Origin: a virus
DNA: 20,448 nucleotides
Virus record (IMG/VR): IMGVR_UViG_3300042542_001929
Location: 1 to 20,448 of that record
Direction: 5' to 3' (one strand)
Under the pieces are notes generated by a model, which saw nothing but the letters and a program-made list of their open reading frames with translations, had not been told where the DNA came from and ran no database searches. Position numbers and translations under genes: made by a program. Below are positions 7,865 through 9,492 of this stretch, one piece after another; position 1 is the first letter of the stretch; each line of letters starts with the position of its first letter.

Positions 7865-8108
7865 CCAGTTCTGCGCAGCGGCTAGACGATGCTCGACACC
7901 CAGAGGGGTCACGCCGCTGCGCACCTTCTCCCCGACGGCCATGCCGCTTCCGACAACCACTGATGGCGCGCCGTCGGGGACCTTCTTCCAGTTCTGCGCA
8001 GCGGCCATGTGTCGAGCGACACCCAAGTTGCCAACGCCGCTGCGCACCTTCTCCCCGACGGCCAATTCGTGCTCGACACCCATTTCAGGATCGCCGTCGG
8101 GGACCTTC
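7865..8108 (+). repeat. TIGR-like guide array 1: four hairpin units, eight 9-nt variable spacers
   Basis: Two near-identical 123-bp dual units start at 7865 and 7988. Each has stem A (TGCGCAGCGGC / GCCGCTGCGCA: 7872-7882 with 7913-7923, 7995-8005 with 8036-8046) and stem B (TCCCCGACGGC / GCCGTCGGGGA: 7929-7939 with 7970-7980, 8052-8062 with 8093-8103). Every stem closes a loop of exactly 30 bases, and every right arm is followed by CCTTC. Inside each loop the central CGACACCCA-like 9-mer (7894-7902, 7951-7959, 8017-8025, 8074-8082) is conserved, while the 9 bases before and after it differ in all four. This edge/spacer A/loop repeat/spacer B/edge order is that of tandem interspaced guide RNA arrays. 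A Nop/IS110-like gene lies downstream. Which strand is processed is not visible. Confidence 0.72.
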
Positions 8109-8131
8109 GAAACACAAGACAGGGGAAACAC

Positions 8132-8581
8132 ATGAGCAAGTTCAGCGACATGGTCGCCGCCCAACGGGACGACACGCCTGCCGATGCGGCATCGTCGATC
8201 CTGACCAAATTGAAGGTCAGCAGCGAGGCCCGAGCGGTACTGCTGCCGGTCGTCGCCAACGCCGTCGCCACGCTTCACCGAGGCAAGGTGCGCCGCATCG
8301 AGCGAGTGGTCGCCGGCATCGTCGTCGCCGTCGATGACGAGGCGCCTGAGATGACCCGCCATGAGGCGCGAATGAAGTTGGCCCGAGAGACGTTCATCAC
8401 CGCCGAGGGCGAGTGTGTCCGCTGGGGCCAGGCGACCGTCGCCCAGCACATGTCCCGCATCGGGCTACTGCACCGCCAGGCCCAGGGGCTCGCCGACACG
8501 ATCGACCTGCACGCCGAGGCGGTCGCCGACATTGAGCGCCACGGCGTCACCTGCCTCGACGACATCCGGGTGGTGGCGTGA
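8132..8581 (+). CDS. Conserved-looking phage protein between the two guide arrays
   Basis: 149 residues. ATG 8132 has AGGGGAAA upstream and is preferred over the in-frame extension, which would translate part of array 1. The protein is mostly helical: SSILTKLKVSSEARAVLLPVVANAVATLHRGKVRRIE, then TRHEARMKLARETFITAEGECVRWGQATVAQHMSRIGLLHRQAQGLADTIDLHAEAVADIERHGVTCLDDI. The last segment ('W-x-ATV-x-xH...RI-x-xL...H...I-x-x-xGVTCL') resembles small proteins of actinobacterial phages and integrative elements, without a known function. It lies between array 1 and the tas-like gene, and its stop overlaps the tas-like start (TGATG), so it may belong to the same system. Confidence 0.68.
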   Translation: MSKFSDMVAAQRDDTPADAASSILTKLKVSSEARAVLLPVVANAVATLHRGKVRRIERVVAGIVVAVDDEAPEMTRHEARMKLARETFITAEGECVRWGQATVAQHMSRIGLLHRQAQGLADTIDLHAEAVADIERHGVTCLDDIRVVA

Positions 8582-9492
8582 TGGACGACAACTTCCACGA
8601 TCTGCGCAGCGGCCAAGGCCATAGCGATGCCCAGGGCCCGGCCGCCGCTGCGCACCTTCTCCCCGACGGCCAAGCCGGTCTCGACACGCATGGCACCCAC
8701 GCCGTCGGGGACACTTTCGGCGGCCAGCCACCGACGGCCATAGTAGCGACGGCAACCATTCCAGACTCGCCGTCGGATGGCTGGCTGGAACTTCGCACGT
8801 TCGCCGAGCTGTACGAGGACACCCAGCGGACCCGTATCGCCTCGGTGAACCGTGTCCGCGCGACCGGGCGGCCAGAGATGTTCGCCAAGCACATCGAGGC
8901 GATGGAGCGCACCGAGCACGAATGCTCGCTGATGCTGGCCCGCTGCTACCGCCGGGTCGTGCCCGCTGCGATCCGGCAATGGCAGCAGGACACACCCGGC
9001 ATCGGTGAAGCCCTGCTGGCCCGCCTGCTCGGCCACCTCGGCCATCCGGTGCTCGCTATGCCGCACCACTGGCAAGGCAAAGGCACCGACCGGCAGCTTG
9101 TCGCCGATGTGCCCTGCGAGCGCACCGTGTCGCAATTGTGGCAGTACTGCGGCCACGGCGACCCCGCCCGGCGCATTGCCAAGGGCATGAGCGCCGAGGA
9201 CCTGGCAGCGATCGGGTCGCCACGGCTGAAGATGCTGGTGCACCTCAATGCCGAGGCGTGCATGAAGTGCGTCGGCACCACTCGCTCGCGCCGCTCGCCA
9301 TACCGAGACGTGTACGAGGCTCGACGACTGGTGACCGCTGACCGGGTGCACGCTGCACCGTGCGTGCGGTGCGGGCCGAGCGGCAGACCCGCCGCCGAAG
9401 GATCGCCGTGGTCGGCTGCGCACCAGCACGCCGACGCCCTGCGGATCGTCGGCAAGGAGATCCTGCGGGACCTGTGGCGGGTGAGTCGGTGA
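8581..9492 (+). CDS. Tas-like protein (Nop / IS110 C-terminal-like domain), no nuclease domain seen
   Basis: 303 residues from ATG 8581 (GTG 8578 is adjacent and in frame). Residues 8-68 are encoded by array 2, and no ATG/GTG/TTG lies in frame between the array and the domain start near residue 70. A helical segment (LELRTFAELYEDTQRTRIASVNRV...) leads to DTPGIGEALLARLLGHLGHP (137-156), a PGIG helix-hairpin-helix-like motif as in IS116/IS110/IS902 C-terminal domains. Then come TVSQLWQYCGHG (182-193) and GSPRLKMLVHLNAEACMKC (212-230), the region equivalent to the Nop-like RNA-binding surface. The C-terminus has SPYRDVYEARR, C261-x2-C264 and a helix ending LRDLW. No RuvC or HNH triad is visible, so an RNA-guided DNA binder rather than a cutter is inferred. 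Alternative: domesticated IS110-type transposase fragment. Confidence 0.68.
   Translation: MDDNFHDLRSGQGHSDAQGPAAAAHLLPDGQAGLDTHGTHAVGDTFGGQPPTAIVATATIPDSPSDGWLELRTFAELYEDTQRTRIASVNRVRATGRPEMFAKHIEAMERTEHECSLMLARCYRRVVPAAIRQWQQDTPGIGEALLARLLGHLGHPVLAMPHHWQGKGTDRQLVADVPCERTVSQLWQYCGHGDPARRIAKGMSAEDLAAIGSPRLKMLVHLNAEACMKCVGTTRSRRSPYRDVYEARRLVTADRVHAAPCVRCGPSGRPAAEGSPWSAAHQHADALRIVGKEILRDLWRVSR
8603..8784 (+). repeat. TIGR-like guide array 2: three hairpin units inside the tas-like reading frame
   Basis: Unit 5 has stem A arms at 8603-8613 and 8644-8654. Unit 6 has stem B arms at 8660-8670 and 8701-8711. Unit 7 has a third, different stem (CCAGCCACCGACGGC at 8724-8738 with GCCGTCGG, a bulged A, and TGGCTGG at 8769-8784). 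All three loops are 30 bases. Central 9-mers are CGATGCCCA (8625-8633), CGACACGCA (8682-8690) and CGGCAACCA (8750-8758). Nine-base variable segments flank each. The different stem of unit 7 with pairing retained argues for selection on structure. The whole array is open in the tas-like frame, giving peptides such as DGQAGLDTH. Confidence 0.7.

Follow-up and report, generated by a model that had tools for sequence, protein, structure and literature searches.

Systems that pair tandem interspaced guide RNA (TIGR) arrays with Tas proteins are known mostly from metagenomes, and the main text of their founding paper calls the targets and origin of the spacers open (Faure et al., 2025; PMC12045711). 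The same text describes, on a contig from the Peromyscus gut, a stem-loop TIGR array accompanied by a TasA protein, and reports for TIGR arrays boxes that recur at edge and loop; a TasR structure (9mty) was deposited with the paper, and within the literature searched, arrays of this kind came up in no further primary paper. The locus considered here, seven hairpin units with a Nop-domain gene, tasA, lies in a virus record of 20,448 bases (IMG/VR IMGVR_UViG_3300042542_001929), the whole of which is referred to below as the window; its GC content is 63-71%, phage genes are present, and its source is a phage of soil actinobacteria. Because of the CCA/CG anatomy of its units, a Tas protein recognized by profile and by fold, the linkage of array and gene, and the variability of the spacers, this locus very probably represents a stem-loop TIGR-TasA system carried by a phage. 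An original prediction, made without database searches, had proposed a TIGR-like array, and unit anatomy matching the stem-loop arrays in the main text of PMC12045711, protein identity and spacer variation support that reading; the guides of about 36 nt that it expected are those of the dual-repeat class, whereas the class found here is stem-loop, with a TasA that lacks a nuclease.

The seven hairpins stand on the forward strand in two arrays, units 1-4 at 7872-8103 and units 5-7 at 8603-8782, with a spacing of 57-66 nt within the sub-arrays. Each closes a loop of exactly 30 nt that opens with CA (TA in unit 1) and ends with C, and in between two stretches of nine variable bases flank a core of nine bases; with the first stem pair included, the unit takes the form CCA-N9-CGNNNNCCA-N9-CG, that is, CCA-N9-CG-N4-CCA-N9-CG. 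Three units have CGACACCCA as their core, the remaining ones CGACAACCA, CGATGCCCA, CGACACGCA or CGGCAACCA, and box C departs from CCA twice, as CTA at the edge of unit 1 and as GCA in the loop of unit 6. Perfect 11-bp stems are present in six of the seven units, two stem sequences, TGCGCAGCGGC and TCCCCGACGGC, alternating, while the stem of unit 7 runs for 8 bp and, past a one-base bulge, for 5 bp more.

All 14 spacers of the window are distinct. Unit 1 (7872-7923) has stem TGCGCAGCGGC, spacer A GACGATGCT (7885-7893), loop CGACACCCA and spacer B GAGGGGTCA (7903-7911), a score of 48.1 bits under the covariance model (CM) described below and a folding z-score of -5.1. The other units, with spacers A and B and CM scores, are unit 2 (7929-7980; stem TCCCCGACGGC; TGCCGCTTC and CTGATGGCG; 54.5 bits), unit 3 (7995-8046; TGTGTCGAG and AGTTGCCAA; 51.1 bits), unit 4 (8052-8103; ATTCGTGCT and TTTCAGGAT; 53.3 bits), unit 5 (8603-8654; AGGCCATAG and GGGCCCGGC; 47.1 bits), unit 6 (8660-8711; AGCCGGTCT and TGGCACCCA; 52.0 bits) and unit 7 (about 8726-8782, with its bulged 13-bp stem; TAGTAGCGA and TTCCAGACT; 42.5 bits over 8728-8779). 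Six stems of at least 11 bp around a 30-nt loop were observed, against a mean of 0.03 and a maximum of 1 in 100 first-order Markov simulations, and stems of at least 8 bp number 9 at loop length 30 versus 0-4 at each other length from 10 to 79. RNA folding z-scores of the units range from -2.2 to -5.1; a scan of the window with Rfam matched no family. The predicted set of seven hairpins with 30-base loops, perfect or near-perfect stems and fourteen variable nine-mers is thus confirmed. The span assigned to it, 7865-8784, does contain both arrays, but it also holds an entire 149-aa gene (8132-8581), and the second array lies inside the open reading frame (ORF) of the Nop protein.

Relatives of the unit were retrieved both by pattern and by covariance. 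The pattern GGCCAN9CGACACCCAN9CGCC matched 40 stretches in IMG/VR, most of which hold further units beyond those that the pattern required; Mycobacterium phage Omega is presumably among them. A covariance model built from 51 units, with E values up to 0.05 accepted, returned 235 units in 48 sources, with exactly seven in the window. Covariation is strong, in figures biased by the choice of the input units by their stems, and the 11-bp stem sequence varies between units and between loci in a comparison that carries the same bias. Among 324 distinct units of relatives, the loop from box to box measures 4 nt in 293, loop length being the one independent dimension of a set whose finder demanded 9-nt spacers. 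Most pattern-fetched loci with enough sequence encode a tas homologue, loci fetched by the protein alone also carry units, and in the window array and tasA share one strand and one gene block. A separate observation concerns the array of Mycobacterium sp. PSTR-4-N (L072:9770-9930), in which one half each of two successive units is duplicated in tandem, perhaps as a vestige of array growth.

The behaviour of the spacers was followed among close relatives. Relatives were found in 85 phage records (76 from Mycobacterium phages), and the array region of phage Euphoria was matched in 74 records of cluster A1-type mycobacteriophages, which grow on M. smegmatis. From near-identical Euphoria-type phages, 26 arrays of five units each were aligned; since they had been fetched through gene or flank homology and not through hairpins, this test of variability is independent of the motif search. 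Column identity is 42% in spacers, 88% in stems, boxes and loops, and 97% in flanks, each unit position has 8 to 19 spacer alleles, and units are swapped between phages as cassettes. Across cluster A1 the position of the tas gene is constant and only the spacers vary. The original prediction was to be abandoned if the nine-mers of related loci proved as conserved as the core; in this alignment they are clearly less so. Over the 324 units, spacer position 6 is rich in G/C and position 1 in A/T, somewhat so in arrays outside reading frames too, a bias that may reflect a seed near the fifth base; at positions 3 and 6, the avoidance of in-frame stops by embedded arrays accounts for part of it, in a comparison made circular by the way embedded units are defined. 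A synonymous-codon pattern in the unit-1 spacers (RAGAGQ) was dropped after other allele pairs proved free of three-base periodicity, and an excess of ATG at site starts was apparent only and is left as unproven.

By analogy with the published family, from which processing, dimeric binding and two-strand DNA recognition are inferred, each unit would be excised as a small RNA, a single hairpin of about 50 nt whose stem would enclose a pair of 9-nt guides flanked by box C (CCA) and box D (CG). TasA, which comprises no more than the Nop domain, would bind boxes C and D as a dimer; use of spacer A on one strand of the DNA and of spacer B on the other would allow recognition of an 18-bp site, 5'-A-rc(B)-3' (rc, reverse complement), and a gap of 0-2 bases between the halves can be derived from the published cleavage geometry. 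Without a nuclease, TasA would act by binding and bending DNA and not by cutting it, most likely with blocked expression or replication of another mobile element as the effect. Rival mobile elements as targets are a guess, since no natural target was found, and are supported only by spacer variability and the absence of self targets.

The outcome of the target searches weighs against the TIGR-TasA reading. Spacers compared with all fetched loci gave no excess of close matches over shuffled A/B controls, nor did 30 guide pairs of A1 phages compared with nine nearly complete Euphoria-type genomes in four geometries; Euphoria-type phages therefore seem not to target their own genomes. Exact 18-mers of 23 guide pairs (17 from A1 phages, 6 from the window) were absent from 50,697 phage records, in a search that detected its positive control and would thus have seen an 18-mer. 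Searches of Mycobacterium genomes with two sites gave only chance-like hits, and one of the sites, searched in 248 genomes, gave no credible one. In IMG/VR, the hits of three window sites stayed at chance level and fell on contigs (27-59% GC) that share no DNA similarity with the window, and one A1 site had no hit. The search for spacer A beside the complement of spacer B in host and phage genomes, as suggested with the original prediction, accordingly returned no natural target.

With no targets found, and with units situated in the tasA leader or within its coding region, at places where the Nop protein could bind its own mRNA, the hairpins might be protein-binding or regulatory sites that serve autoregulation of the tasA operon, have no guide function and carry nine-mers that drift. 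This explanation is very unlikely, as drift hardly accounts for the contrast, within one set of phages, between spacers (42% identity) and stems (88%) or flanks (97%). The 4-nt loop, moreover, is fixed in most of the 324 units, and so is the 9-nt spacer length, although the latter was imposed by the finder.

The identity of the protein further supports the TIGR-TasA reading. On the forward strand, tasA runs to 9492 from a start at GTG 8578 or ATG 8581 that overlaps the stop codon at the end of the preceding gene; its first ~70 codons carry units 5-7, followed by the Nop domain (core 8788-9489). As a single sequence, the last 234 residues matched TasH in the PDB at E 0.003, and a profile from a 31-member alignment matched TasR 9mty at 5.7e-23, TasH at 1.8e-19 and the IS110-family recombinase IS621 at 0.23. 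Structure prediction from the single sequence gave no usable model (pLDDT 39), while a model built on 26 relatives reached pLDDT 94 and pTM 0.87. Its best fold match is TasR (Z 18.2 over 179 residues at 1.8 A, TasR residues 113-294), then TasH (Z 17.8), with IS110 recombinases at about 13 and Nop5 at 6.5, and its core aligns to IS621 residues 130-311 only. Because the N-terminal remainder is ~70 codons of hairpin sequence, in which no nuclease domain fits, the modelled protein is classed as TasA, the nuclease-less type; a Pfam search of the ORF gave no DEDD hit. The Nop/IS110-like gene predicted beside the arrays therefore exists, as the ORF 8578/8581-9492, but as a Tas gene by profile and fold to which IS110 is the poorer match. 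The RuvC ORF at 13251-13715 was considered for that role and rejected, being an unrelated Holliday junction resolvase (phrog_1770). At 9330-9440 (core residues about 185-215), most actinophage TasA proteins show an H-x3-C-x2-C-G-P motif with later histidines, possibly a metal site, which is missing from several relatives.

PHROGs labels this protein 'transposase' (phrog_4285), and by the annotation there and in Omega, the gene would encode an IS110-like transposase, with the hairpins as pieces of transposon ends or of bridge RNAs. The Nop fold is indeed common to IS110, and the Omega copy belongs to a precise insertion, described around gp21 in the left arm as IS110-like and accompanied by a 5-bp duplication (Pope et al., 2013; PMC3706429). 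Yet the profile favours TasR and TasH over IS621 by about 20 orders of magnitude, the modelled core is aligned with the Nop portions of those two proteins, and the ~70 codons before it encode hairpins and leave no room for a DEDD domain. Each locus has many units, each with its own guide pair, and not one bridge RNA, and in cluster A1 the gene stays fixed in place while only spacers vary; the transposase explanation is thus extremely improbable. A TasA that acts with box C/D-like hairpins on RNA and not on DNA, like a box C/D snoRNP without fibrillarin, shares the Nop fold of Nop5 (Z 6.5) but is hardly credible, given that TasA is much closer to the DNA-targeting TasR and TasH and that its boxes are CCA and CG, not RUGAUGA and CUGA.

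A further feature is the placement of guides inside the tasA reading frame. Units 5-7 are in frame within the ORF, and in the window, as in seven other loci, no in-frame ATG, GTG or TTG occurs between array and Nop domain, so that translation must cross the hairpins, barring a rarer start codon. Outside the Euphoria group, the array is stop-free in the tas frame in 27 of 34 loci where it precedes the tas domain. Over 28 stop-free loci (10.1 kb in total), the tas frame contains 0 stops and the other two frames 31 and 67, and the units of stop-free arrays fall into the three phases 75, 71 and 3 times, one phase being avoided. Some loci, including Gordonia phage BENtherdunthat, carry further units within the Nop domain, in a variable loop; in the Euphoria group, the M. 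abscessus prophage prophiFSAT01-1 and a few others, the array is instead a non-coding leader, and the start codon comes after it. Such embedding was not found in the main text of the TIGR-Tas paper (PMC12045711). Within 7964-8578, units 3 and 4 are also in frame with the preceding gene, upstream of it and free of stops, so that part of the first array might be translated as well.

That preceding gene, a companion of 149 aa and unknown function (8132-8581, forward strand), lies between the two arrays. In 50 of the 55 tas loci, a homologue immediately precedes the array or the tas gene; three of the five loci without one are short fragments, and the whole genome of Omega does carry one. The protein has no convincing Pfam or PDB match, and its close phage members form phrog_4604, of unknown function. 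A ParB-like partner of some TasA genes is mentioned in the TIGR-Tas paper, whose main text was not found to describe a conserved companion gene (PMC12045711); no ParB profile matched the companion. Whether the tasA transcript serves both as message and as guide precursor and, with its conserved companion, marks a distinct actinophage branch of TIGR is a proposition for which the case stands evenly balanced. If so, guides would be cut from the effector's own coding sequence, each guide made would destroy a message, autoregulation would be built in, and spacers would be placed under stop-codon constraint.

The tasA family is also present in bacterial genomes (Mycobacterium pinniadriaticum, M. 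interjectum, Parafrankia, Actinomadura, Nocardioides, Nocardia and others), where the copies are probably prophages. In Omega, the tas gene, companion and units occupy L079:14227-16579 (14.2-16.6 kb) in the left arm, and their position in the region where the insertion around gp21 is described suggests that the whole cassette may move as a unit. Elsewhere in the window, a low-complexity tandem repeat of ~12 nt (GCCGCTCGGGAC-like, 7000-7170) encodes an alanine-rich stretch of ORF 6613-7290, and ORF 11575-12342 carries a similar alanine-rich repeat.

Altogether, a gene long annotated as a phage transposase can be re-read as TasA with hypervariable guide arrays in 74 records of A1-type mycobacteriophages, and the growth of these phages on M. 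smegmatis makes the questions of target and acquisition testable in a standard laboratory system. Guides embedded in the frame of the effector, together with a conserved partner gene of unknown function, are new elements that need explanation.

Among known systems, the stem-loop TIGR-TasA of the Peromyscus contig, as described in the main text of PMC12045711, resembles this locus in several respects: its TasA is a solo Nop protein, each hairpin unit has two spacers of 8-12 nt lying between boxes C and D, palindromic stems of variable sequence replace the edge repeats, and sub-arrays are several hundred bases apart. Unlike that system, the window has three units inside the tasA coding sequence and a conserved companion before the array, and actinophage units have a nearly constant loop between the spacers and actinobacterial hosts. 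Dual-repeat TIGR-TasR and TasH (9mty, 21kl) likewise have a Nop domain, two 9-nt spacers and a CCA box C at edge and loop, whereas box D is UG there and CG here, the window TasA has no RuvC or HNH domain, and long variable stems at a spacing of about 57-66 nt replace the constant 8-12 nt edge repeats and ~36-nt spacing that accompany a 36-nt tigRNA. Box C/D snoRNPs differ in their RUGAUGA and CUGA boxes, absent from the units, which matched nothing in Rfam. IS110 recombinases with their bridge RNA (8wt6, 9t56) have in common a Nop-fold RNA-binding domain and paired guides in an internal RNA loop, and are set apart by a DEDD domain and a single two-loop RNA where the window has many units. The 'transposases' Omega gp21 and Euphoria gp70 (phrog_4285), formerly read as IS110-like insertion genes (PMC3706429), belong to the same protein family as the TasA described here and have arrays beside them.
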